From Bacteroidales bacterium (lineage in GTDB: Bacteria > Bacteroidota > Bacteroidia > Bacteroidales > UBA932), in NCBI GenBank assembly GCA_017959005.1, contig JAGDBO010000001.1, positions 1 to 64,000 on the forward strand: a stretch of 64,000 nt of DNA, read 5' to 3'. Each line of letters starts with the position of its first letter. Position 1 is the stretch's first letter. This document shows, piece by piece, positions 3,292 to 50,566 of this stretch. The notes beneath the pieces were generated by a model, which worked only from the letters and a program-made list of their open reading frames with translations, was not told the origin of the DNA and did no database searches. The translations under genes were made by a program, and so were the position numbers.

Positions 3292-6167
3292 TTCTCATCA
3301 GAAACCTGTTTGATATAGACATCTCTCTGAGGGAACGGAATCTCTATATTGTTAGCGTTCAGAGCTTTGTAAATAGTCTCGTTTGCTAAAGCAGTATATG
3401 GGTAACGCTCCTCCACAAGAACCTGTTGGTAAACCTTAATTATAATAGCACTGTCTCCAAATTCAGAGAGACGTACAACTATTCCGTACTTAGGATCCAG
3501 TACAAGTCTTCCGTACTTGTCTTTCTTGTTGAGTTTCATCAGCTCTTTTTTCAGAATCGCTCTAACCTTCTCAACATCAGAGCCGTATTTTATACCAACA
3601 GGAAGTATCAGAAGTTCGTAAGCGTGGTTGCGGGTAAGGTTTTTAAAGTTTTTGCTGTACAGTGCGGCGTTAGGGAATGCCATCACGCTTCCGTACTCAG
3701 TCTCTATCATTGTACTCTGATAGGTAATGGTATCTACAACACCGCGAATTCCGTCACACTCCACAATATCTCCCACTCTCAATCTTCCGCTCATAAGTGA
3801 AACACCATAGAAGAAATTGTTGATTACATCCTTTAACGCAAAACCGATACCGGTAGCCAAACCTGCTGCTACAATGGAAATTGCCTTAGATGGAATCTTC
3901 AGTAGGAAGAATACGGTTATTATGTAAATACCCCATGTTGCAAAACTGATAATGGAGTTGGAGAGAGTGAAGTTTACCATATTCTCCGGCAGAGATTTCT
4001 GGCCTGTCTTCTCCAAAATAGAGCGAATCTTGTAAGCTCTGAAGAGAGACTTTACAAGGTAGCAAAAATAGTTGAATACAAAGGCAAGTGAGAGTGCCAG
4101 CAATATCTTGTTAACGGAAAGGCTTATTACATCATAGTTGAGGAACGGATAGCTCAGGTAGTTCAAACAAACTGTAGATAAGTCAAATACGTTGGAAGCC
4201 ATATAGACGCAGAGAGGTATTGACCATACGGAGAATGCCGGAATAACAGCCATCTTTACAAAGTCATAGAACCAGGTTACCTCTATGTAAGAACCCTTTA
4301 CTTTTGTGTTTATCAGATAAGAGTGAGAAAGAGCATAAGCCCTCTTCCACTTCATCATATATCTATCGTGATACTTCTTAAGAAGATTCTCAATGGCGGT
4401 AACTGTCTGCAAGACAGAAAGCTGGAAGGTCCACATTATTACCACCAAAATAGACATCAACACATATCCGCTCCAGGAGAGGACGGTAGCAGCCAGCATA
4501 ACTGCAAGAGAGATAAAGTTATACATGCTGTCTGAAAACTCCATTTTGTTTCTGTACTTTGTACTTACACGGCTCTGCCACAGTGTAAATATCAAGAACA
4601 TAGGAGGCAGAATGAGTATGATCAAAGAGTTTGGAATAAAGGTTATTCTTATGAAAATCAATACCATACTCAGCACCATAATTGGCAGGTATGATCTCAG
4701 GCAGTAAATAACCATATCTCCCCTGGCCCTGATTGCAAGTGAAAGGAAAATTGCGGCAAGCAACCAGGCGTACTCAATGAGACGGCGGGTTGCCACCTCC
4801 AAAAAGTTCTGTTCCGTAAAGAGCATTGCAACCGTTACAATGATTGCAAAGATTACAACGGAGAAGAGAAGAACCAGACAGATTCCGTGCTTCTTGAAAT
4901 TCTCGTTCCGGAAATACTTCACCCTCTTCATTAACCTTCTAACCAGGAAGTTACTGAGCAATATAGAAAGTCCCAGATAGAACATCACAAAAAGGATGAG
5001 TCCAAAAATTGTCTGAGGACTCCACTGGCTGTGCACGTGTCTCTCTGTAGTAGGTGCCCACTTGTCATTGGCATCCATTTTTGCACGCTTAAAATAGCCT
5101 ACAGGATTGAAAAGAATTTTAAAGTAGTTTGTCTGTCCCTCAATGAAAATCTTTTTCTGCACATGCTTGTAACGCTCTTGTGCATAATTATATGCAGACT
5201 CCAACTGCTGCCAGGTAGCATTGTAGTTAACACTGTCTATTACAATAGCAGACTTTGTATCCTCATAGAGATTAAGCAGCTGCTCTGCATAGAAAATACA
5301 GCTGTCTCTGTTCTTGAGGGCTGCGCCCTTAAGTATAAAGATATATTCATCAGAAGATGCCGTGGTATCCAAAGCCGGATCTACTGAGGAGATATCCATA
5401 ACAAGGTCATCGTCATCATCGTCCTCCTCCTCCTCCTCCTCTTCTGCCTCATGATTGTTTCCTAAGTCCAAACCGCTCGGCATTTTAACGGACATCTTTC
5501 CTGTAAGCACCGTTGTAGCAAGGTTTTTGAAGAACTTACCGCTCTTCTGCAATCCGGTGAGAGTATCATGTTCAGCCTTTTTGTGATGATGGTGGGCTAC
5601 TGCATTCAAACTGTCCGGCGTCTCCAGAGTGTCTACCTTTCCTTCCTTTAGGTTCTTCTCGTGCAGAAGTTCCAATTCCTCCTGTAACTTACTGGCAAGC
5701 AGAATAGTAGAATCACTCTTTTGAAGAGAATCTTTACCCTCCTCAATTAAGGCGGGCGGGATTCTCTTAAGAGTATAAATCAGCCTTTGGTATCTTTCAA
5801 TCTCTATATTCAGCTGATTTATAATAGTTACGAAAGGACGGCGATGGTTGCTGAATTCTCTGTACTGTTTGGAAACTTCCTCCAAAGCGTGAGTAAGGTC
5901 AAAAGTGAAATCCTGCTTCTGAGAGTAGAGCATCAGAGAGAGCTCATTGCAGTCTTCCATCAACTGAACCATCTGTTTCTGTTGCATCTGACGAGATGCC
6001 TTCATCCTCTGTTGAGCATTAGACGTACGGTTGTAAACATGTTTCAGCTCGTGCTTTAACACTCTGAGTGTCTGAGACATATTTTGCTCTTCAAATACCG
6101 CGGAAGCAGGCAGGATCACTCCAAAGAGGAGGATCAGGAGCAATAACACTTTGGATAGTTTCTTCAT
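3288..6167 (-). CDS. Large MscS-family mechanosensitive channel
   Basis: 959 residues, much longer than E. coli MscS (286) and closer in size to the MscK/YbdG/MscM-type group. A signal peptide (1-23) leads to a long periplasmic helical region with heptad-like stretches, interrupted at about 241-258 by an unbroken run of Glu and Asp. About ten membrane helices follow from roughly residue 385. The pore helix and MscS core are at about 765-860 (GLATGIGFALKDVINNF, GDIVECDGIRGVV, NAALYSKNFKNLTRNHAYE), then the cytoplasmic alpha/beta domain. Role: tension-gated efflux of solutes on osmotic downshock. It lies 6 nt after two GHL10 glycosidase-like genes, suggesting joint expression with cell-wall remodelling. 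Confidence 0.92.
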   Translation of the reverse strand: MKKLSKVLLLLILLFGVILPASAVFEEQNMSQTLRVLKHELKHVYNRTSNAQQRMKASRQMQQKQMVQLMEDCNELSLMLYSQKQDFTFDLTHALEEVSKQYREFSNHRRPFVTIINQLNIEIERYQRLIYTLKRIPPALIEEGKDSLQKSDSTILLASKLQEELELLHEKNLKEGKVDTLETPDSLNAVAHHHHKKAEHDTLTGLQKSGKFFKNLATTVLTGKMSVKMPSGLDLGNNHEAEEEEEEEDDDDDDLVMDISSVDPALDTTASSDEYIFILKGAALKNRDSCIFYAEQLLNLYEDTKSAIVIDSVNYNATWQQLESAYNYAQERYKHVQKKIFIEGQTNYFKILFNPVGYFKRAKMDANDKWAPTTERHVHSQWSPQTIFGLILFVMFYLGLSILLSNFLVRRLMKRVKYFRNENFKKHGICLVLLFSVVIFAIIVTVAMLFTEQNFLEVATRRLIEYAWLLAAIFLSLAIRARGDMVIYCLRSYLPIMVLSMVLIFIRITFIPNSLIILILPPMFLIFTLWQSRVSTKYRNKMEFSDSMYNFISLAVMLAATVLSWSGYVLMSILVVIMWTFQLSVLQTVTAIENLLKKYHDRYMMKWKRAYALSHSYLINTKVKGSYIEVTWFYDFVKMAVIPAFSVWSIPLCVYMASNVFDLSTVCLNYLSYPFLNYDVISLSVNKILLALSLAFVFNYFCYLVKSLFRAYKIRSILEKTGQKSLPENMVNFTLSNSIISFATWGIYIITVFFLLKIPSKAISIVAAGLATGIGFALKDVINNFFYGVSLMSGRLRVGDIVECDGIRGVVDTITYQSTMIETEYGSVMAFPNAALYSKNFKNLTRNHAYELLILPVGIKYGSDVEKVRAILKKELMKLNKKDKYGRLVLDPKYGIVVRLSEFGDSAIIIKVYQQVLVEERYPYTALANETIYKALNANNIEIPFPQRDVYIKQVSDEK

Positions 6168-38333: not shown

Positions 38334-41231
38334 ATGTCATATACTTTTGCGCAAAGACACATCGGACCAAGAGAGCAGGATATTAAGGCAATGCTTGAGG
38401 TGCTTGGTGTTAACTCAATGGAAGAACTTGTAAAACAGACCGTTCCTGAAAATATCCTTCTGAAGGAAGATCTTAAGATGGATGCCCCAATGGGAGAGAA
38501 CCAATACCTTGCTCACCTTAAGGAGATGGTCTCCAAAAACAAGAATTTCCGTTCAATGATAGGATGCGGTTACTATGGAACCGGCGTTCTTTCGGTAATT
38601 ATCCGCAACATTTTTGAAAACCCTTGTTGGTACACCTCTTACACTCCGTATCAGGCAGAGATTTCTCAGGGAAGATTGGAGGCGCTGCTCATTTTCCAGA
38701 CCGTAATCAGTTCACTCACCGGCTTTGCACTCTCCAACTGCTCAATGTTGGATGATGCGCAGGCTGCCGCTGAGGCAATGAGAGTGATGTTCAACCTCAG
38801 AAGCAGGGATGCCGTTAAGGCAGGCAAGAATGTGCTCTTTGTAGATGACGAACTTTTCTCACAGGTTAAGAGCGTTCTTAAGACTCGCGCAGAAGGTCTT
38901 GGCATTAAGATAGTTATGGGTGAGTGGGATAAGTTTGAGGGTGATCCTAAGTGCTTTGGCGCTATGGTTCAGTACCCTGCAGCAGACGGACAGGTAAGAG
39001 ACTACTCCGCTTTCTGTGCAAAGATGCACGAAGCGGGCTGCATGGTAACCGCTTACTGTGACATTCTCGCCCTTGCAGTTTTGAAGGAACCTGCAGCATG
39101 GGGAGCCGATATTGCAGTTGGAAGCACTCAGAGACTGGGTCTCCCGATGGGTTATGGCGGACCTACAGCGGGCTACCTCGCAACCAGGGAGGAGTACAAG
39201 AGAAGCGTGCCGGGCCGTATCATCGGTGTTACCGTAGACCGCCTGGGAAACAAGGCGGTAAGATTGGCCCTTCAGACAAGAGAGCAGCACATCAAGAGAG
39301 AGAAGGCAACTTCCAACGTCTGCACCGCCACTGCACTTATGGCTACAATGAGCGGAATGTATGCAGTTTACCACGGACCGGAGGGACTGAAATCCATCGC
39401 GGAGAATGGAGAAAAGTTTGCTCACAAAGTTGCGGGAAAACTGAAAGAGGTTGGATATGTTCTTTCAAATGAAGAGTTCTTTGACACTATAGAGATTAAA
39501 GGCAGAAGAGATTTGACAGGTGCTATGCAAAAGCTTGATGTTGATACCATTAAAGCAAAGGCACTTGAGGCCGGATTCAACTTCTATTATACAAAGTGCG
39601 GAAAAATCAGAATCAGCTTTGATGAATTGAGCAACAAGGCTGAGGCTCATAAGATTTTGGGAATCTTTGGAGTAGAGGTTAACTGCCAGTGCGGTTGCGG
39701 ATGCGGCCAGGGTAGCGGTCACTGTCCGGTGGAGAGAAGATTTATGAAGAGAGAGACTCCTATTCTCACTCAAAAGGTATTCAACTCTTACCACAGCGAG
39801 AGTGCTATGATGCGCTTTATCAAGATGTTGGAGAGAAAGGACATCTCTCTGGCTCACTCAATGATTCCGCTGGGAAGCTGCACAATGAAACTCAACGCTG
39901 CCGTTGAGATGATGCCGCTCAGTTGGAGCGAACTTACCAACGTTCACCCGCTTGCTCCTAAGAATCAGGTAGATGGCTATATGCAGCTGATTCATGAACT
40001 GATGCAGGATCTGGAGACCATTACCGGTTTTGCTGCCTGCTCGCTTCAGCCAAACTCAGGTGCTGCCGGAGAATATGCAGGACTTACAACCATACGCCGT
40101 TTCTTTGAGGCTACAGGTCAGACAGATAGAAAGGTGATGATTATCCCTACATCTGCTCACGGAACAAACCCTGCATCTGCTGCAATGGCAGGCTTTGAGA
40201 TTGTTCTGGTTGGCTGTGACGAGAAGGGAAACATCAACGTAGAAGAGTTGGTTCAGAAGGCAGAGCAGGCAGGAGAACGCCTTGCAGGTCTGATGATTAC
40301 ATACCCTTCTACTCACGGAGTATTTGAGGTTAAGATTAAGGAGATTATTGATGCAATTCATAAGTTTGGCGGAAAGGTATATATGGACGGAGCTAATATG
40401 AATGCACAGATTGGTCTTACAAATCCTGGAACAATAGGTGCGGATATCTGCCACCTCAACCTCCACAAATCATTCGCTATGCCTCACGGCGGCGGCGGTC
40501 CTGGAGTTGGCCCAATCTGCTCAACTGCAGAACTTGCACCTTATTTGCCGGGACATCCGGAAGAGAACTGTATTGCACACAGTTGCAGCATTGCAGAGGG
40601 TTGCAAGGGAACGGATGCAGTATCCGCTGCAGCCTTCGGAAATCCGCTGCTTCTCCCAATCACTCACGCTTACATAAAATTACTGGGTGCTGAGGGTCTC
40701 AAGGAGTCTAGCCAGGTTGCAATACTCAATGCCAACTATATTGCAGAGTCTCTAAAGAACGAGTATCCAACCGTTTACTCAGGTGCAACAGGAAGAGTTG
40801 CTCACGAGTGTCTGCTGGATTGCAGAGATTTCAAAGAGAAATTCGGCGTAGGTTCTACAGATATTGCAAAGAGATTGATGGACTTCGGATTCCATGCACC
40901 AACCCTCTCATTCCCTGTACATGAGACACTTATGGTTGAGCCTACGGAGAGTGAACCAAAGGAGGAGATGGACCGCTTCATTGAGGCAATGAAGACAATT
41001 AAGGCAGAGTGCCAAAAGATTGCGAGCGGAGAATTTGATGCAAAGGATAATCCTGTATGCTGTGCACCGCACCCTGCAGAGGAGTGCTGCTCAGACAATT
41101 GGAGCCATCCATACTCAAGAGAACTTGCCGCATATCCTCTTAAGTGGATAAGAGAGAACAAGTTCTGGCCTGCCGTATCACGCGTAGATGACGGTTACGG
41201 AGACCGCAACCTTGTTTGCAACTGTGACTAA
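38334..41231 (+). CDS. gcvP: Glycine dehydrogenase (decarboxylating), P-protein
   Basis: 965 residues, the full-length homodimeric form. It opens with FAQRHIGPREQDIKAML; the second half holds the PLP site NLHKSFAMPHGGGGPGVGP. It decarboxylates glycine and passes the aminomethyl group to lipoyl GcvH. gcvT and gcvH are not in the window. Two features are unusual: a Cys-rich segment at about residues 451-465 (CQCGCGCGQGSGHC) exactly at the joint of the two halves, and a second Cys cluster near 908-920 (VCCAPHPAEECCSD). One nt separates its stop from the hemerythrin-domain gene. Confidence 0.97.
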   Translation: MSYTFAQRHIGPREQDIKAMLEVLGVNSMEELVKQTVPENILLKEDLKMDAPMGENQYLAHLKEMVSKNKNFRSMIGCGYYGTGVLSVIIRNIFENPCWYTSYTPYQAEISQGRLEALLIFQTVISSLTGFALSNCSMLDDAQAAAEAMRVMFNLRSRDAVKAGKNVLFVDDELFSQVKSVLKTRAEGLGIKIVMGEWDKFEGDPKCFGAMVQYPAADGQVRDYSAFCAKMHEAGCMVTAYCDILALAVLKEPAAWGADIAVGSTQRLGLPMGYGGPTAGYLATREEYKRSVPGRIIGVTVDRLGNKAVRLALQTREQHIKREKATSNVCTATALMATMSGMYAVYHGPEGLKSIAENGEKFAHKVAGKLKEVGYVLSNEEFFDTIEIKGRRDLTGAMQKLDVDTIKAKALEAGFNFYYTKCGKIRISFDELSNKAEAHKILGIFGVEVNCQCGCGCGQGSGHCPVERRFMKRETPILTQKVFNSYHSESAMMRFIKMLERKDISLAHSMIPLGSCTMKLNAAVEMMPLSWSELTNVHPLAPKNQVDGYMQLIHELMQDLETITGFAACSLQPNSGAAGEYAGLTTIRRFFEATGQTDRKVMIIPTSAHGTNPASAAMAGFEIVLVGCDEKGNINVEELVQKAEQAGERLAGLMITYPSTHGVFEVKIKEIIDAIHKFGGKVYMDGANMNAQIGLTNPGTIGADICHLNLHKSFAMPHGGGGPGVGPICSTAELAPYLPGHPEENCIAHSCSIAEGCKGTDAVSAAAFGNPLLLPITHAYIKLLGAEGLKESSQVAILNANYIAESLKNEYPTVYSGATGRVAHECLLDCRDFKEKFGVGSTDIAKRLMDFGFHAPTLSFPVHETLMVEPTESEPKEEMDRFIEAMKTIKAECQKIASGEFDAKDNPVCCAPHPAEECCSDNWSHPYSRELAAYPLKWIRENKFWPAVSRVDDGYGDRNLVCNCD

Positions 41232-41232
41232 G

Positions 41233-41925
41233 ATGATTACAGAGAAGTCAAAACTTGCGGACGTCATTGCGTCCAACCCGCTGCTTGTCTCCGTTTTGGA
41301 GAGAATGAACGTAAAACTTGGCTTTCACGAGGCCACGGTGGAGCAGATATGCCACAGATACAAACTCTCCTCGCACCTCTTCACCAATATTTGCAACATT
41401 TTCTCCTCCAGCGAGTTTGAGCCTCAGGTAGATTTACTTACAGCTAAAGATCTGGAACACCTTGTAAACTACCTGAAGGTTTCTCACAAGTACTACTCAA
41501 AGAAAATCTTTAAGAGCCTGCACCTTAAGATTCATAAACTATTGGAGGGGAAAGACCCTAACAATCAGAAGATTCTGAACAAGTTCTATGATGATTATCA
41601 GGCGGAACTTATGCACCACTTTAACTTTGAAGAGGAGATTGTTTTTCCATATCTCCTCTCTCTGATTAAAGGAAAGAGTGACGGCAGCACCGCCTTTAAG
41701 GTTATGCAATTTACTGAAAACCATTCCGGTATAGAGGATAAACTTGCAGACCTTAGAAACATCATTCTTAAATATCTGCCGGAAGAGTATTCACAGTCTT
41801 TAAGATTTGACATACTCAAAGATATCATCTCAATTGAGAGTGACCTTACAAAACATACCATTATTGAGAGCAAGATTCTTGTTCCAATTATGATAAGGTT
41901 GGAGAAACAGAACAACAGAGTGTGA
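41233..41925 (+). CDS. Hemerythrin-domain protein
   Basis: 230 residues from ATG 41233, just after the gcvP stop; an upstream in-frame start inside gcvP is rejected. The N-terminus (KLADVIASNPLLVSVLERMNVKLGF) resembles the ScdA/RIC-type N-terminal domain of di-iron repair proteins. The hemerythrin-like four-helix bundle (about 90-225) carries candidate di-iron ligands in VSHKYYSK, ELMHHFNFEEEIVFPYL, ENHSGIEDKL and TKHTIIESKILVP. It may sense or handle O2 or NO, or act in Fe-S cluster repair. It is translationally coupled to a small LuxR-type regulator, which points to a sensory role. Confidence 0.85.
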   Translation: MITEKSKLADVIASNPLLVSVLERMNVKLGFHEATVEQICHRYKLSSHLFTNICNIFSSSEFEPQVDLLTAKDLEHLVNYLKVSHKYYSKKIFKSLHLKIHKLLEGKDPNNQKILNKFYDDYQAELMHHFNFEEEIVFPYLLSLIKGKSDGSTAFKVMQFTENHSGIEDKLADLRNIILKYLPEEYSQSLRFDILKDIISIESDLTKHTIIESKILVPIMIRLEKQNNRV

Positions 41926-42164
41926 TGAACGAGCTTGAGCGGACAACGGAGAACGAAGCTCTTTCAGAGAGAGAGAAGGAGGTTCTTGTGGAGGTGGCCA
42001 AAGGGCTTACCAACAAGGAGATAGCAGACCGTCTCAATATCTCCATCCACACCGTCATAACACACCGTAAGAACATCTCACACAAGACCGGCATCAACTC
42101 CATTGCAGGATTGACGGTCTATGTAATAATCAACAAACTGGCAGATATAAAAGATTTGCTTTAG
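41925..42164 (+). CDS. Small LuxR-type DNA-binding protein
   Basis: 79 residues from ATG 41925 (overlapping the hemerythrin stop as TGATG). Almost the whole protein is a GerE/LuxR helix-turn-helix: [46 protein letters not shown]. There is no receiver or ligand-binding domain, so it needs a partner for signal input; the hemerythrin protein encoded upstream is the obvious candidate. Its 3' end overlaps convergent smpB by 4 nt. Confidence 0.88.
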
Positions 42165-44780: not shown

Positions 44781-44834
44781 CCTCAAAGACCTCTCAAAAA
44801 CTCTACAAGCACTCTACAAAACCTCTATAAATAC
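44781..44834 (+). repeat. Phased CTCTACA-like tandem repeats upstream of the phosphate-type operon
   Basis: Five units start at 44781, 44791, 44801, 44812 and 44823: CCTCAAAGAC, CTCTCAAAAA, CTCTACAAGCA, CTCTACAAAAC, CTCTATAAATA. The 10-11-bp period puts all of them on one face of the helix. The layout (7-bp core plus about 4 bp) is like that of Pho boxes in other bacteria. Further single copies are at 44866 (CTCTACAT) and 44889 (CTCTATTC), the latter close to the -7 box. Confidence 0.6.
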
Positions 44835-44863: not shown

Positions 44864-44930
44864 AACTCTACATGGGGTGAAAATATGACTCTATTCTTGT
44901 ATATTTGTGTTCAGATAACAATGTAGAGTT
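44864..44930. promoter_or_regulatory. Inverted operator-like pair flanking the promoter
   Basis: AACTCTACAT (44864-44873) and its exact reverse complement ATGTAGAGTT (44921-44930) flank the -7 box at 44900-44907. They carry the same CTCTACA core as the upstream tandem repeats. The right copy lies 5 nt before the start codon of the DUF47 gene. Confidence 0.55.
44900..44907 (+). promoter_or_regulatory. Promoter -7 box of the phosphate-type operon
   Basis: TATATTTG, 28 nt before the ATG at 44936. No TTTG element exists at the usual upstream spacing; instead a CTCTAT copy lies just before it, as expected for an activator-dependent promoter. Confidence 0.6.
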
Positions 44931-44935
44931 ACGCC

Positions 44936-45595
44936 ATGGGGTTAAATGAAATTTTTTCCAGGAAATCAGATAGACTTGAAAAGTCTGTAAGCGGCTTGCT
45001 GGAGACCGTAGACGCTGCTTTAATAGTATTTAAAGAGGGTGTAAAGAACTATCTTTACGGTGACCAGGAGAGTTTTACGGAGAATTTAGGGAAGATGGCA
45101 ACTCTGGAGAGCGACGCCTCCTCCAAAGCAAGAGAGATAGAGAACATGCTCTATTCCAGAGGTTACTTGATTCGTTCCAGAGGAGACATTATGCGTCTTT
45201 TGGAGAGACTGGACCACATCTTTGTGATTATCAGCACAGACCTTATCCAGTTTGAGATTGAGTCTCCTAGAATTCCTAATGAGCTTAAGCGTGAGTTTGT
45301 GAAACTCAGCGAGTTGGCTGCAATGGCCGCAGAGAATACAATCCCTGCAACCAGGGCCTATTTCACCTCCCCAAAGAGCGTATCTGAAACCACTGCCCAG
45401 GTCTATTTCTATGAGAAAGAGGCTGTTAAGGTGAGTCAGTCCATTAAGCGGACAGTATTCCACAATATGGATAACCTCAAACTCAGTGAGAAGTTCCACC
45501 TGCGTTACTTTGCCCTCCATATTGAAGATCTGGCAAAAGCTGCGGTAAAGGTGGCTGAGCAACTCTCTGTAATGACCATAAAAAGAGCCCTTTAA
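44936..45595 (+). CDS. DUF47/PhoU-like protein (Pit accessory family)
   Basis: 219 residues, nearly all helical, matching the DUF47 (YkaA, Pit-accessory) family: MGLNEIFSRKSDRLEKSVSGLLETVDAALIVFKEGVKNY at the start and the E/D-rich helices (MATLESDASSKAREIENMLYSRG, RGDIMRLLERLDHI) that bind metal clusters in PhoU relatives. DUF47 genes commonly stand next to PiT phosphate transporters. Here the next gene (TAATG overlap) is a PiT-derived membrane protein, so the pairing is kept. It is the first gene of the eight-gene operon and probably modulates its membrane partner in response to phosphate. Confidence 0.85.
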   Translation: MGLNEIFSRKSDRLEKSVSGLLETVDAALIVFKEGVKNYLYGDQESFTENLGKMATLESDASSKAREIENMLYSRGYLIRSRGDIMRLLERLDHIFVIISTDLIQFEIESPRIPNELKREFVKLSELAAMAAENTIPATRAYFTSPKSVSETTAQVYFYEKEAVKVSQSIKRTVFHNMDNLKLSEKFHLRYFALHIEDLAKAAVKVAEQLSVMTIKRAL

Positions 45596-47202
45596 TGGAT
45601 ACTACCCTCTTATATATTATCATCTCTTTGCTGCTTGCCGCCTCAGCTTTAATGCTGATGGACTATCCATATATAGGAGGCAGCGTGCTGGCTTCCGGAG
45701 CCGGAGAGAGAATATTTATAAGAGTAACAGCTCCCTTTTTATTGATAGCAGCAATGGTTCTCCCTTGCTTTTATCCCGAATATTTTACTCAGATGACAGA
45801 GGGGCTTCTCTCCCCTAAATCTGTAGCCAATATACTTCCTGTGGGAATGGCCACCGCCCTCTCCGCAGCAATTATGTGGAAACTGAGCCGTTTTGTTGCA
45901 GTTCCGTTTGCATTTATTGCAGCCATTGCTGGATTGGGACTGGCAAACGGAGATACAATAACTTTTAAGGAGTCTATGCCGTATATCCTCTCCTGGATTG
46001 CGGCTCCTTTATTCTGTGCCTTTATCTCCGCCACCTTCTATCTTCTCTTTGCTCTTATGCAGAGAGGCGGAAAGAATCACTTTGCAAAAACGGAGGCGAG
46101 AGTGCTCTCCCTCTCTACCATAGTTGCACTGCTGCTGATTCCTGCGGCTGGTCTGAATATCTCAATGATATTCACCTATTTGCCGTCTGAATATGGGAGC
46201 CTTACTCCGTATATTGCAGGTGGTGCGGTTATAGTTCTAATGCCGCTGGTTGCACGCAGCATAAACAGAGACAAGTGGGATATTGCAGATTATGAGCTGG
46301 ATACAAACCCTCAGTCCATTCTGTCACTGATGATGGGACTTTTGGTTTGCTTTGCTCTCTTTAGCTCACCGCTTCCGCAGTACGTTGGATTGAGAGCAAC
46401 TCCGCTTCCTGCAGGAACGCTATTCATTGCAGCACTTGCAGGCATAAGCATATTCAGCAAGAGAACGCTTACAGAGGGGCCGGAGATAATTAAGGGCATT
46501 ATAACTACCTATCTTTCACCTATTTTGGCACTACTGTTATCTTTCTGCCTTGGAAAGATACTGGACAGAGAGATACTCGGAACCATAATAGTTTTAGGAA
46601 TATTCCTTACCGTTGGCGGAGTTATGTTCTTTGTTCGCCGTCAGAACAAAAGCAACCTCAACAAACAAATATTGCGTTCTCAGCAGCAGCGCTACTATTC
46701 AACACAGAAATCTCTCTCCGCACTGGAGGTAAGAGCGGAGATGACGGAGAAAGATCTTCTCAACAAGCTGGAAAACAAGCGCAAAGAGCTGGTAGACTTT
46801 GCAATGGGAATAAGCGAGCAGAAGAACTATATGGAGAGCGTCTTTGACCAGTTGAAGATGGTGCGCTCAACAAAGGACGGAGCAGAGAAGGACGCACGCA
46901 CAGAGGAGTTGCTTAAGTCTCTTCACGATAGAATGTACTTCACCAGAGAGATGAATGACTTCTACTCACGCAGCGAGGAGCTCCACAAAGACTTTAATAT
47001 GAGGCTAATGGAGGCCTTCCCTCATCTGACGGAGAATGAGAGAAAACTTGCAACCCTCCTAAGACAAGGATTTTCAAGCAAATACATTGCCTCACTTATG
47101 AGCATTACACCAAAGAGCGTAGAAATAAACCGCTACAGATTGAGATCCAAGTTGGGACTCAGACGCAGCGACAACCTAATAACATTCATTAAATCAATTT
47201 AA
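45595..47202 (+). CDS. PiT-derived membrane domain fused to coiled coil and LuxR-type HTH
   Basis: 535 residues in three parts. Residues 1-350 hold about ten membrane helices; 84-155 (MATALSAAIMWKLSRF, VPFAFIAAIAGLGLANG, ILSWIAAPLFCAFISATFYLL) match the first PiT phosphate-transporter repeat in order and spacing, but the family's transport signatures (GANDxANA-like, and SSSH after the glycine-proline) are absent. Residues 355-440 are a charged coiled coil (EVRAEMTEKDLLNKLENKRKE). Residues 478-535 are a LuxR-type HTH (LTENERKLATLLRQGFSSKYIASLMSITPKSVEINRYRLR), as at the C-terminus of many Bacteroidota membrane-bound regulators. I infer a phosphate sensor anchored in the membrane that binds DNA directly. 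The PiT link is by eye only. Confidence 0.78.
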   Translation: MDTTLLYIIISLLLAASALMLMDYPYIGGSVLASGAGERIFIRVTAPFLLIAAMVLPCFYPEYFTQMTEGLLSPKSVANILPVGMATALSAAIMWKLSRFVAVPFAFIAAIAGLGLANGDTITFKESMPYILSWIAAPLFCAFISATFYLLFALMQRGGKNHFAKTEARVLSLSTIVALLLIPAAGLNISMIFTYLPSEYGSLTPYIAGGAVIVLMPLVARSINRDKWDIADYELDTNPQSILSLMMGLLVCFALFSSPLPQYVGLRATPLPAGTLFIAALAGISIFSKRTLTEGPEIIKGIITTYLSPILALLLSFCLGKILDREILGTIIVLGIFLTVGGVMFFVRRQNKSNLNKQILRSQQQRYYSTQKSLSALEVRAEMTEKDLLNKLENKRKELVDFAMGISEQKNYMESVFDQLKMVRSTKDGAEKDARTEELLKSLHDRMYFTREMNDFYSRSEELHKDFNMRLMEAFPHLTENERKLATLLRQGFSSKYIASLMSITPKSVEINRYRLRSKLGLRRSDNLITFIKSI

Positions 47203-47228: not shown

Positions 47229-48599
47229 ATGCGAAAAACATTATTGCTGGCAATTACTTTACTGCTCACAGCCGGAGCGGTATTTGCCCAGGAAAACGTA
47301 AAACGCAACCAGTACGGAGTCGCAGTTAATTCAGATGTTCTGGATGTTGAGGCTCAGGACGGTATTACAGTGTTTGAGTCACAGAAGAGTGGCTACAAAT
47401 TCTGGTTTGACGGACGTGCACAAGTTGACGGAGCCGTATTCTTTGGAAAGAACAGCAAAGATTACGACCAGATTGGCAACGGAGTAAGCATCCGCCGTGC
47501 TCGTTTCGCCGTTAAGGCACAGGTAACCAACAAGTGGTACGGAGAGTTTGATATGGATCTTGCTAACGGTCTTGTTGAACTTAAAGACGCTATTGTACGT
47601 TACACAGGTGTAAAGAATCTGGAACTCCAGGCCGGTAACTTTAAGGAGAACTTCTCTATGCAGCGTAACACCTCTTCACGTTATCTGATGTTCATGGAGA
47701 GACCTATGGTTACCTCAGCACTAGCTCCTTCACGTCACCTCGGAATCAACGCAAAATATGCAAACAAATGGTTCTGGGGTTCTATAGGCGCTTTCTCTCA
47801 GGAAGTTGCAGGCAGCGAGGAGTGGACAAACGTTGCAGACAACAACAAGGACTACGGCCGTGATGCAGGTTACTCCATCACTTCCAAGATTGTTTTCCGT
47901 CCTCTCTACAAGTTGCAGGACGCAAGCTTGCATATTGGCTTTGCAGCATCTTACCGCAGAGCTCTTACAAGCGTAGAGCCTAGTGCTTGGGGAATGTACC
48001 GCGCAAGTGCACGTAACTCCACAAGCATCAACCGTAAGAAATATCTTGATACTGACAACCTTCCTGGTTTTGACCACAACTGGCTCTGGACAGTTGAGTT
48101 GGCAGGTCACTGGCAGGGACTTCGTTATGAGATGGCTTGGATTGGTGATAACGTTCACTTTAAGAAGTCAGCTGCAGACCATGCAGTTAAGAACTTTGGC
48201 GGCGGATACATTCAGTCAAGCTACCTTCTCTGCGGTGGTTCACAGCGTTATGATGCTAACGGTGGCAAGTACACTAAGATAAGATACGGCCGCAAATGGG
48301 GAGATCTTGAGATTGCAGGTCGTTACGAGTATTGTGACCTCAACAGCAAGACCATCTACGGAGGTTCTGCAGAGGCCTACACAATCGGACTCAACTGGTG
48401 GATTTACAACAACGTAAAGTTTATGATTAACTACCAGCATAATAACAATGACAGATATGCAAACGGTAAGGGCAAGCTCCTCGTAGGTCACGATGCAGAC
48501 GGCAAACCTACAAAGGACTACACTCAGGTTGTTGAGAAGAAGGGTAAGGCCGGTGTAGATTACAACATGCTCAGCGTTCGTATTGAGATTAACTTCTAA
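47229..48599 (+). CDS. Porin_O/P family (phosphate-selective-type) porin
   Basis: 456 residues. Signal peptide to FAQ. The mature part reads as a 16-18-stranded barrel: GYKFWFDGRAQVDGAVFF, SIRRARFAVKAQVTNKWYGEFDMDLANGLVELKDAIVRYTG, LELQAGNFKENFSMQRNTSSRYLMFMERP are the typical first strands of the OprO/OprP group, and the chain ends in LSVRIEINF. OprP and OprO of Pseudomonas pass phosphate and polyphosphate; in Bacteroidota the family is wider, so selectivity is inferred from the neighbours. Twenty-six nt follow the sensor gene. Confidence 0.88.
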   Translation: MRKTLLLAITLLLTAGAVFAQENVKRNQYGVAVNSDVLDVEAQDGITVFESQKSGYKFWFDGRAQVDGAVFFGKNSKDYDQIGNGVSIRRARFAVKAQVTNKWYGEFDMDLANGLVELKDAIVRYTGVKNLELQAGNFKENFSMQRNTSSRYLMFMERPMVTSALAPSRHLGINAKYANKWFWGSIGAFSQEVAGSEEWTNVADNNKDYGRDAGYSITSKIVFRPLYKLQDASLHIGFAASYRRALTSVEPSAWGMYRASARNSTSINRKKYLDTDNLPGFDHNWLWTVELAGHWQGLRYEMAWIGDNVHFKKSAADHAVKNFGGGYIQSSYLLCGGSQRYDANGGKYTKIRYGRKWGDLEIAGRYEYCDLNSKTIYGGSAEAYTIGLNWWIYNNVKFMINYQHNNNDRYANGKGKLLVGHDADGKPTKDYTQVVEKKGKAGVDYNMLSVRIEINF

Positions 48600-48613
48600 A
48601 AATGTCACGAATT

Positions 48614-49429
48614 ATGAAAAAGTTTATAATAGCTGCATTTGCAATGGTATTTGCCTTCACATCTTGTGTTAAGGACGAAGTATATCCATTCCCGGCAATT
48701 TCAAATATTTCCAACACCATAGCTTACAACGAACTTGAAGATGTAACAGTTAATGCAACAGTTACCGCTTTCGTTACAGTTGATGAGGTTAATCTTGTTT
48801 ACAAGGTTGGCGGCGGTGCTGCTCAGACAGTTAAGATGACCGGTGCTGCTAACGTTTACTCAGGCGTTATCCCTGCTCAGGCAATGGGTACTGTTGTTAC
48901 CTACAACGTAGTAGCAAAGACCAAGGGTGGTACAACCACTTCTAATGAAGTATCTTACACAGTCGGTGTAATTCCTATTGACTTTACTCCTTTGAAACTC
49001 AATGAGCTCAACGGTAACGACAAGTTTATAGAAATTATCAACACCGGTAGTAAGGCTATCAACATTAAGGGCATAAAGATCTTCAAGGATACCAAGGATG
49101 TTTGGACAGGTCCTAACCGCGAACTCCCTGCAGGCGCATATCTTCTCCTTTACAGTGAGGATGTTGTAGTTCCTGGCGAAAAGCATGAGGGTTATGATCC
49201 AGAGCTCATATTCACTTCAGGTCTCTCCGCAAAGAAGGCCGTAAGGGTACAGCTTACAGATCCTGTTAAGAAGGATTTGGATGACTTCAACCTGGTAACC
49301 GTAGCTAAGACTGCTCCTGCATCTTACAGCCGCGTTCCGGACGGAACAGGTAAGTGGTACTACACATCAGCTACCCCTGGTGCTAAGAACACTAACGATA
49401 CTTCAGACCCTGTAACCGGTCTTCAATAA
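48614..49429 (+). CDS. Lipoprotein with lamin-tail (LTD) domain
   Basis: 271 residues from ATG 48614 (an ATG four codons earlier is less likely, as the signal peptide MKKFIIAAFAMVFAFTSC starts here; Cys18 is lipidated). Residues about 30-120 are an Ig-like sandwich (VTVNATVTAFVTVDEVNLVYKVGGGAAQTVKM). Residues about 130-265 are a lamin-tail domain: LKLNELNGNDKFIEIINTGSKAINIKGIKIFKDTKDVWTG, AGAYLLLYSED, YSRVPDGTGKWYYTSATPGAKN. LTD lipoproteins are often adhesive or help place enzymes such as nucleases and phosphatases on the surface. Here it follows the porin gene, so it may assist substrate capture; that is inference. Confidence 0.8.
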   Translation: MKKFIIAAFAMVFAFTSCVKDEVYPFPAISNISNTIAYNELEDVTVNATVTAFVTVDEVNLVYKVGGGAAQTVKMTGAANVYSGVIPAQAMGTVVTYNVVAKTKGGTTTSNEVSYTVGVIPIDFTPLKLNELNGNDKFIEIINTGSKAINIKGIKIFKDTKDVWTGPNRELPAGAYLLLYSEDVVVPGEKHEGYDPELIFTSGLSAKKAVRVQLTDPVKKDLDDFNLVTVAKTAPASYSRVPDGTGKWYYTSATPGAKNTNDTSDPVTGLQ

Positions 49430-49455: not shown

Positions 49456-50094
49456 ATGGGAGAATTAAAAATTGGAGAAATAAGCAAACCTCGTTTTGAG
49501 TTCCGCAGTTTCGGTCAGTGTTTCTGTAAGGCTCATAAAAGAATGGCACGCCTCTCTGCCCCTGTACCAGAGAAGGTTTGGGAGAGAGAGTCAGATGAGA
49601 TTTACATTATCTCAAAGAAGAACGATATAAACAACACCAAGATTCGTGACGGCAAGATGGACATCAAGACATTTGTCCAGAACGTAGACGGATTGGAGCA
49701 GTGGAATCCTTTGATGAAGGGTGAATTCCCTATCAGCAAGGAAGTTCTTGAGAAAGAGGTATTTCCTGCTTTCATGGTAGAGATGCCTGCTCTTACAAAG
49801 GATACCTATACTTTTGACGAGTTTATCCAGATGGTAAAGGCTAATCCGGACCTTGCAGCAGTGCGCGTTCACAAGCAGCGCTTCGGTTATATGGTAAACG
49901 GTACAATATGCGAAGTTGGTAACGTTCTTATCAACGGTGCAAAGGTGGTTACCATCAACTCCGAGTCTACAGAGATTGAGGATATTAAGAAGACTATCAA
50001 AGACGTTGGTCTTGAGGGCGTTGAGAATATCAACTATCTGCAGGCAATCAAGCGTGTTATTGGAATGAGTGACAAACCTCTAGCAAACGAATAA
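49456..50094 (+). CDS. Divergent CYTH-like protein
   Basis: 212 residues, no signal peptide, cytoplasmic. I recognise no exact family, but the order of strands resembles the triphosphate tunnel (CYTH) fold: an ExxRxF-like start (FEFRSF), SDEIYIISKKNDINNTKIRDGKMDIK (the YxxS...KxR...K strand set), EQWNPLMKGEF, then KQRFGYMVNGTICEVGNVLINGAKVVTINSESTEIEDIKKTIKDVGLE, equal to the VxxNGxxxEVDxxxxNG...IEsE strands. The next gene, 1 nt later, is a canonical CYTH protein, which supports a shared fold and joint job. It could be a regulator or partner subunit rather than an enzyme. Confidence 0.6.
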   Translation: MGELKIGEISKPRFEFRSFGQCFCKAHKRMARLSAPVPEKVWERESDEIYIISKKNDINNTKIRDGKMDIKTFVQNVDGLEQWNPLMKGEFPISKEVLEKEVFPAFMVEMPALTKDTYTFDEFIQMVKANPDLAAVRVHKQRFGYMVNGTICEVGNVLINGAKVVTINSESTEIEDIKKTIKDVGLEGVENINYLQAIKRVIGMSDKPLANE

Positions 50095-50095
50095 T

Positions 50096-50566
50096 ATGGC
50101 ACAGGAAATCGAACGCAAGTTTTTGGTAAAGGGCAACTTTAAAGATGCCGCTTTCAAAGCAACCCGTATCACACAGGGATACCTTTGCTCTATTCCAGAG
50201 AGAACCGTACGCGTGCGCGTAAAGGGAGAGAAGGGTTTCATCACCATTAAGGGTATTGGTTCCGACAGCGGAGCCAGCCGTTTTGAGTGGGAAAAAGAGA
50301 TTCCTGTTGCTGAGGTTCAGGATCTTCTAAATATCTGCGAACCAGGTGTTATTGACAAGACCCGCTACCTTGTTAAGGTTGGAGAGCACACATTTGAGGT
50401 AGATGAGTTCTACGGAGACAATGACGGATTGGTTGTTGCCGAGGTTGAGCTCGGAAGCGAGAATGAGGCTTTTGACAAACCTGAGTGGCTGGGTGAGGAG
50501 GTAACCGGAGATGTGAAGTATTACAACTCCATGTTAATGAAAAACCCGTACAAGAACTGGAAGTAA
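50096..50566 (+). CDS. CYTH-domain phosphohydrolase (triphosphate tunnel metalloenzyme)
   Basis: 156 residues, the size of short bacterial CYTH enzymes. The hallmark ExExK is EIERK at residues 4-8, followed by TQGYLCSIPERTVRVRVKGEKGFITIKG (basic tunnel strands RxRxK) and EVDEFYGDNDGLVVAEVELGSE (acidic metal-binding strands). Members act on inorganic tripolyphosphate or other triphosphorylated substrates with Mg or Mn; inorganic triphosphatase is the likely role for a short stand-alone form. It is cytoplasmic and follows the CYTH-like gene by 1 nt; its stop overlaps the SLC13 ATG (TAATG). Confidence 0.92.
   Translation: MAQEIERKFLVKGNFKDAAFKATRITQGYLCSIPERTVRVRVKGEKGFITIKGIGSDSGASRFEWEKEIPVAEVQDLLNICEPGVIDKTRYLVKVGEHTFEVDEFYGDNDGLVVAEVELGSENEAFDKPEWLGEEVTGDVKYYNSMLMKNPYKNWK

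Follow-up and report, generated by a model that had tools for sequence, protein, structure and literature searches.

The known transporter-derived receptors are mostly eukaryotic proteins or sensor kinases. Among the matches listed in our literature searches, the closest architecture to the protein that we describe here is the Eggerthella family of LuxR regulators with 12 transmembrane segments, such as DadR. In the accessible passages of the paper on these Coriobacteriia, the regulators DadR, HcdR, and CadR, with 10-12 transmembrane segments, regulate neighbouring genes (PMC9734109). Here we analyse a gene from a Bacteroidales bacterium (UBA932; assembly GCA_017959005.1) whose product joins a membrane domain related to PiT transporters to a LuxR-type helix-turn-helix (HTH). 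The gene lies within positions 1-64,000 (+ strand) of contig JAGDBO010000001.1, which we call the window; the genome is 1.8 Mb and 86% complete. We think it fairly probable, from sequence comparisons, that the protein is a membrane-tethered one-component transcription regulator that derives from a PiT anion transporter and regulates its own operon.

A PiT-like domain and a LuxR-type HTH on one chain

The gene has these parts:

45595..47202, + strand: the whole PiT-HTH fusion gene, 535 amino acids with an ATG start; a degenerate PiT domain and a LuxR-type HTH
45595..46569, + strand: PiT-like two-repeat membrane domain, residues 1-325, with the Ser/Thr/Gln motifs lost (profile comparison, motif alignment)
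46573..46629, + strand: last hydrophobic segment, residues 327-345, then 4 K/R in 12 residues, in keeping with the positive-inside rule (hydropathy)
46630..47004, + strand: charged linker, residues 346-470, strongly conserved along with the HTH (ortholog alignment)
47026..47199, + strand: LuxR/GerE HTH, residues 478-535 (Pfam, profile, alignment)

Pfam's PHO4 family (PF01384) matches the window protein with 30.4 bits (E = 2.5e-7, with the best stretch at residues 68-195), which is below the curated cut-off of 33.7. Among its relatives, one ortholog (L046) scores 35.7 bits and another (L051) has no match at E = 0.1. A profile from 27 sequences (A1) matches both repeats of TmPiT (6l85) with E = 7.4e-5, and it also matches DevR/NarL-type HTH structures. 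When we compared a profile of the N-terminal part (A2) to other alignments with hhalign, the probability was 97.3% for the unfused PiT of locus L124, over 302 columns, and 96.8% for a PiT alignment. As a PiT protein, then, the window protein has the two-repeat homology, scores below the Pfam cut-off, and lacks the transport motifs. The HTH is above its cut-off: GerE (PF00196) matches residues 478-529 with 29 bits (cut-off 23.5). In the recognition helix, K507, S508, R513, R515, and L516 are invariant across 22 aligned sequences (L184, which is discussed below, is not among them). A preliminary description of this stretch, made from its letters, had proposed the PiT homology, the LuxR-type HTH, and the neighbouring DUF47 gene, and all three held up; the ATG of the fusion gene overlaps the stop codon of the DUF47 gene (TAATG).

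Using hydropathy only, the window protein has 11 hydrophobic segments before the HTH. In two other fusions (L165 and L167), a polar linker parts the last segment from the PiT domain, and K/R residues follow that segment. These features would fit a PiT domain that ends in the periplasm and an added helix that carries the linker and the HTH into the cytoplasm. (The scan gives just 9-10 segments in four other proteins that we examined, so it undercounts.)

The fusion is real, conserved, and more widespread than the preliminary description saw. Searching the order with A2 gave matches in 38 of 393 genomes and exposed open reading frames of about 580-600 amino acids, in which the PiT domain is followed by a polar linker, an additional hydrophobic segment, and then the linker and HTH known from the window protein. 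We replaced this search with one that used an alignment of the fusions' PiT domains (A5), which matched 39 of 393 genomes at E = 1e-30. In 24 of these 39, from 17 families by our group codes, the HTH is in the same reading frame as the PiT domain (according to an HTH profile; the match for L184 is weak). This is the PiT-plus-GerE architecture that the preliminary description had proposed to look for. Among the other 15 genomes, one has a gene that is interrupted by a stop (G111), two have genes that run off the contig ahead of the point where an HTH would be seen (G296 and G227), and 12 have unfused forms only. One genome (G152) carries a fused and an unfused form. In a class-wide sample, 19 of 395 genomes had matches at E = 1e-10, and just 2 scored above 400 bits (G595, which is fused, and G565, which is unfused). 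We rejected an assembly artefact as the origin of the fusion, because the single reading frame recurs across 17 families.

Most of these wider fusions keep the transport motifs in their PiT domain. The three that we scanned (L136, L139, and L150) match PHO4 with 202-220 bits, and their GerE matches are over the cut-off. Typical motifs are GANDAANVFG, VSTSQ, GANNIANVMG, and VSSTQ. All four transport motifs are kept in 21 of the 23 fusions from the order in which the first motif is visible. By motif, G-x-N-D is kept in 22 of 24 (those 23 and G595), S-x-x-Q of repeat 1 in 24 of 24, and GANN and SS-x-Q in 25 of 25. The first motif is altered, and the other three are kept, in L162 (GAQG) and L185 (GSKD), both of other families.

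Transport motifs in the window clade

By scanning genome contigs, we found 31 relatives of the window gene, all from Bacteroidales/Bacteroidia metagenome-assembled genomes and mostly from the ruminant gut. We call these and the window gene the window clade. A1 contains the window protein and 26 of the 31 relatives; near-duplicates (L023, L027, L029, and L031) and a fragment (L052) were dropped. Of the aligned relatives, 25 match the window protein end to end, and L047 is cut before residue 100. For orthologs that are less than 90% identical to the window protein, identity is 23-58% in the N-terminal part and 61-79% in the C-terminal part. In the window's own genus, 11 of the 37 genomes searched have a full-length match.

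The preliminary description had stated that the transport signatures are missing. This is true of GAN in GAND and of both S-x-x-Q/H motifs; it is not true of the acidic residue at the Asp column of GAND or the Asn of GANN, which are retained. Among the 27 window-clade proteins, the substitutions in repeat 1 are S97 to A (23), T98 to V (24), S99 to P (21), and Q100 to F or Y (25). In repeat 2 they are S286 to P (18, with S kept in 8), S287 to A (22), and Q289 to T (15). We take the Ser/Thr/Gln positions of the PiT motifs to be the anion site. The Asp column of GAND is still acidic (D in 19 and E in 7 of the 26 ungapped sequences), and the Asn of GANN (N183) is N in 27 of 27.

Selective constraint has also flipped: compared to the other fusions, the PiT domain of the window clade is loosened, and the linker and HTH are tightened. 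We compared mean pairwise identities among 21 fusions and among 18 window-clade rows. The PiT domain averages 61.6% in the fusions vs. 35.8% in the window clade, while the last 165 residues (the linker and the HTH) average 43.5% vs. 75.5%, and the last 66 residues average 58.8% vs. 83.7%. As a yardstick, the DUF47 proteins average 63.9% vs. 71.1%. From these patterns, it seems that the regulator was retained in the window lineage and the transport site was not.

A different explanation, which we consider unlikely, is that in the window clade the PiT-like part serves as no more than a decaying membrane anchor, and that the HTH is constitutive or is controlled by DUF47 alone. The low identity of the PiT domain, next to a DUF47 protein that is still at 71.1%, and the alteration of all four motifs would fit decay. 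However, apart from the contig-cut L047, every aligned relative (25 of 26) has the whole membrane domain without large deletions, and one helix would suffice for anchoring. Furthermore, besides M1, 11 residues are invariant in 25 sequences (G35, A36, E38, G113, W134, N188, D236, P270, L271, G283, and S285).

To place the window clade, we built trees of DUF47, of the linker and HTH, and of PiT. (L254, with a gene truncated at the edge of its contig, is labelled as unfused in these trees.) In the DUF47 tree, the 18 window-clade rows and one further fusion (G260) form a 99* group, which lies in one set with 19 fusions. Five fusions (L167, L170, L171, L176, and L256) sit among unfused rows, and the fused or unfused state needs 5 changes. 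The HTH-less L174 pairs with one of these, L176 (99*). In the linker and HTH tree, 20 fusions, 16 window-clade rows, and G260 form one 95* group of 37 rows. Just outside this group are the five fusions named above, along with two proteins of a different architecture. The PiT tree also unites the window clade with G260 (100*), but the branch that leads to them is very long, which makes their placement weak. We also considered that the DUF47 and PiT genes of the window are the canonical Bacteroidales pair, and rejected this because the canonical rows form a separate clade.

The G260 protein (locus L161, starting at 4997 on the + strand) is a 551-residue fusion from another genus of the same family, and it has altered motifs of its own (e.g., S-P-V-H at the repeat-2 site). 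Its motifs make it a possible intermediate on the way to the loss of transport.

Promoter repeats and the operon

Upstream of the fusion gene and its DUF47 partner, the window contains these elements, and these genes follow:

44801..44829, + strand: three direct repeats (CTCTACA, CTCTACA, and CTCTATA at 44801, 44812, and 44823, in 11-bp steps), a candidate operator, conserved in orthologs
44866..44872, + strand: fourth repeat (AACTCTACA from 44864), 65 bp or about 6 turns from the first (sequence search)
44889..44895, + strand: degenerate repeat CTCTATT (sequence search)
44900..44907, + strand: TATATTTG, which fits the Bacteroidota -7 box, whose consensus we take to be TAnnTTTG (motif fit)
44922..44928, - strand: single reversed repeat directly before the DUF47 start (sequence search)
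44936..45595, + strand: DUF47/PhoU_div protein, a PhoU-like partner (PF01865, 35.2 bits, E = 1.1e-8)
47229..48599, + strand: Porin_O_P outer-membrane porin (PF07396, E = 5.3e-36)
48602..49429, + strand: LTD-domain protein, the conserved next gene (PF00932, 39.2 bits)
49456..50094, + strand: conserved 212-residue protein with no Pfam family at the cut-off, syntenic; may be a separate unit (synteny)
50096..50566, + strand: CYTH-domain protein, syntenic (PF01928, E = 3.5e-15)

The form AACTCTACA occurs 3 times in the 64-kb window, always in this promoter (0.43 copies expected), and the shorter CTCTACA occurs 18 times, with 4 copies in this promoter (8.6 expected). The core CTACA is present in 29 of 29 window-clade promoters (220 bp before DUF47), with 83 copies vs. 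8.9 expected by shuffling. (This set is the window and 28 of the 31 loci, including near-duplicates; L036, L047, and L052 have too little upstream DNA.) It is also present in 23 of 24 fusion promoters (250 bp), with 52 copies vs. 7.4 expected, and it ranks first among the 1024 5-mers in that set. (L168, L193, and L255 were left out; L164 contributes just 99 bases, and L256 is from another order.) Among 14 relatives in which no HTH was seen, by contrast, CTACA is present in 2, with 2 copies vs. 3.3 expected; one of the 14 is L254, whose cut gene might have an HTH, and leaving it out gives 2 of 13.

The repeats are directional, with 52 copies on the + strand and 3 on the - strand of the fusion promoters. 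As a control, we counted CTACA in 32 further upstream regions from the fusion loci and found 5 copies on the strand of the region itself and 16 on the opposite one. Six of these regions cover part of the DUF47 promoter from the opposite direction; leaving them out gives 5 (+) and 8 (-) copies in 26 regions. The repeats are also helically phased: scanning periods of 6-16 bp, the spacing period is 10.85 bp in the window clade and 10.8 bp in the fusions, and 0 of 2000 jittered controls reached this strength in either set. Distances within one locus are not independent of each other, nor are those from related loci.

Natural variants link the repeats to the HTH. L184 (gene start at 5894 on the + strand of that locus) is the sole fusion without CTACA repeats; its recognition helix has decayed and its porin gene is gone, and its PiT motifs are kept. 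Conversely, L124 has no HTH and no CTACA, yet it has the porin, so the repeats track the HTH rather than the porin. L169 and L174 have a linker-like tail without an HTH, and have neither the repeats nor the porin. From the repeats, the fusion probably controls its own operon. Many further proteins in the order have a related linker and HTH, which would fit repeats that serve another regulator, with the HTH of the fusion binding elsewhere; but given repeats in nearly all of the fusions, in few of the relatives without a seen HTH, and not where the HTH has decayed, we think that this is improbable.

The order of the genes (DUF47, PiT-HTH, Porin_O_P, LTD) is operon-like and conserved. DUF47 is upstream of the window-type fusion in 29 of the 31 relative loci (the other 2 are cut by the end of the locus), so that DUF47 adjoins PiT as in a PiT-DUF47 transport operon, and Porin_O_P is directly downstream in 31 of 31. 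In the wider family, the porin is the next gene for 22 of 23 fusions vs. 1 of 14 unfused relatives (L124; Fisher P = 5e-8). On the tree, this linkage amounts to just 2-3 independent pairs (none opposite), so we claim no significance after accounting for phylogeny. (Edge-cut L166, L168, L170, and L254, stop-interrupted L193, low-scoring L259 and L260, and degenerate L161 were left out.) The gaps between the fusion and porin genes are 7-191 bp and contain no CTACA (21 fusion loci measured).

Several other features of these loci are worth recording. The LTD-domain protein is a probable lipoprotein. Conservation of the protein at 49456..50094 exceeds that of its neighbours: its identity is roughly 90% or higher across nearly all of the relative loci, 87% for two partial copies, and 70-84% in those distant fusion loci in which we see it. 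In place of the porin, the unfused PiT relatives L173, L174, L188, L189, L191, L192, L251, and L253 have, no more than two genes away, CYTH genes or genes distantly related to the one at 49456. Two DUF47 matches are present in 9 of the 11 genomes of the same genus that have the fusion. In L125 (5678-7608, G000:C18), the second DUF47 gene of the genome adjoins the gene of a 424-residue protein that resembles cation/proton antiporters (by eye), and not a PiT gene. Elsewhere in the window, at 41188-42164, a Hemerythrin-domain gene (PF01814) is directly followed by a gene for an 80-residue stand-alone LuxR HTH (PF00196, 65 bits); these might be a sensor/regulator pair.

Mechanism, ligand, and comparison with known systems

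In the mechanism that we propose, the HTH would dimerise via the linker and bind the helically phased CTACA direct repeats upstream of DUF47 (AACTCTACA in the window clade). Binding would control the operon itself and hence the supply of the porin. The signal would come from the PiT domain, perhaps together with the PhoU-like DUF47 protein. In most fusions, sensing would be coupled to transport (a transceptor), while in the window clade the PiT-derived domain would act as a receptor only. More broadly, we lean slightly towards the view that these are widespread single-chain transporter-transcription factors of the Bacteroidales, in which the transport state would pass through the extra helix to the DNA-binding domain and on to the operon and its partner porin, and that the ruminant-gut lineages are pure receptors.

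Phosphate is the favoured but unproven signal, and we also considered sulfate or no ligand at all. The neighbours DUF47, Porin_O_P, and CYTH suggest phosphate. In the window genome, among the three phosphate-uptake families that we searched, there is no PiT over the Pfam cut-off, no match to PstC, and one match to a PF02690 cotransporter. Across the genus, a PiT over the Pfam cut-off is found in 0 of the 11 genomes with a window-type gene vs. 13 of the 26 without it (Fisher P = 0.003, with genomes that are incomplete and related). We doubt that the signal is sulfate or another anion. When we scanned the PiT domains of two fusions and of L124, the best NCBIfam match was to the CysP sulfate permease (best E = 7.4e-25), but at 87.5 bits this is far below the cut-off of 400. 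There is also a Na_sulph_symp gene farther along the locus. Set against these are the three neighbours above and the motifs of the fusions, which are mostly GAND/GANN, unlike the GGSG of L129 and L130, which we take from their motifs to be CysP-like and which a 96* branch places on the side of the canonical PiTs. Least likely, in our judgement, is that the window-clade domain still transports some other substrate, with the HTH as a linked regulator as in other fusions: remnants of GAND and GANN persist (D/E and N) and there are new invariant residues around ASGA-E, but most members have A/V/P/F-Y and P/A/G/T in place of the two Ser/Thr/Gln motifs.

Several results weigh against our interpretation. 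The loss of the Ser/Thr/Gln motifs speaks against a phosphate ligand in the window clade. The phosphate signal of the preliminary description is only a candidate, given this loss and given CysP, far below its cut-off, as the closest NCBIfam model of the fusions' PiT domain. The fast-evolving N-terminal domain of the window clade (23-58% identity) would also fit a mere anchor. The fusions are not one clade, since 3-6 changes between fused and unfused are needed across the trees, and repeated gain of the HTH cannot be told apart from repeated loss. The branches of the DUF47 tree that nest the window clade and G260 among the fusions have support of 83 and 88 and are not starred. Because related loci are not independent, we counted independent pairs for the link between the HTH and the repeats; there are 2 if only starred branches are used and 3-5 if all branches are, with none opposite, which is too few for significance. 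Finally, a search for a wider regulon with tandem or paired sites, in 23 genomes or in 35, found no excess over reversed-pattern controls, so we do not use it as evidence for one.

Of the preliminary description's proposals, our results support the idea of a former transporter that would act on DNA, alongside the PiT homology, the loss of motifs, the GerE match, and the DUF47 neighbour. To the preliminary description, our analysis adds that the fusion is widespread with its motifs kept, that Porin_O_P and LTD are in the operon, and that promoter repeats track the HTH. Overall, PiT-HTH is a transceptor candidate, and the proteins that descend from it in ruminant-gut lineages, among them the window protein, resemble receptors, by a mechanism that is partly inferred. 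A carrier-like domain and a transcription factor share one chain, and both a motif-keeping form and a motif-less descendant exist. With both forms at hand, together with a candidate element in the promoter and relatives that naturally lack the HTH, one can directly test how a transporter would become a receptor, as well as how Bacteroidales sense anions. If our reading is true, then a transceptor, a pure receptor, and possible intermediates (G260, and L162 and L185 with their altered first motif) could be compared side by side.

No description of a PiT-LuxR HTH fusion turned up in the open literature, as covered by titles and the starts of abstracts among the matches listed (subscription papers are mostly outside this coverage), in line with the preliminary description, to which no described regulator with this architecture was known. 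The DadR family resembles the window protein in having a polytopic N-terminal membrane domain and a C-terminal LuxR HTH, but it is from another phylum, no PiT domain is named in the accessible passages, and the likeness is by description only (PMC9734109). The main text of PMC9734109 has no words that begin with "transporter". Other Bacteroidales membrane proteins share the hydrophobic segment, the charged linker, and the LuxR HTH (the NCBIfam BT3442 family is one weak match), but they match only the C-terminal part of the window protein, from about residue 306. PiT transporters (PF01384, SLC20; TmPiT 6l85) share the two-repeat homology, and most of the wider fusions keep their motifs, but they have no HTH, and the window protein is without the Ser/Thr/Gln motifs and below the Pfam cut-off. 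In the accessible parts of the source, the yeast amino-acid receptor Ssy1 likewise reuses a transporter fold as a receptor, but it works via a protease that processes a transcription factor, with no fused HTH (PMC12958826). Similarly, as far as the available passages describe them, the SLC5-STAC histidine kinases (CbrA, CrbS, and RpuS) join a transporter domain to a signalling output; theirs is a histidine kinase whose response regulator is another protein, whereas the window fusion has its HTH on the same chain (PMC9100948, PMC5715377).

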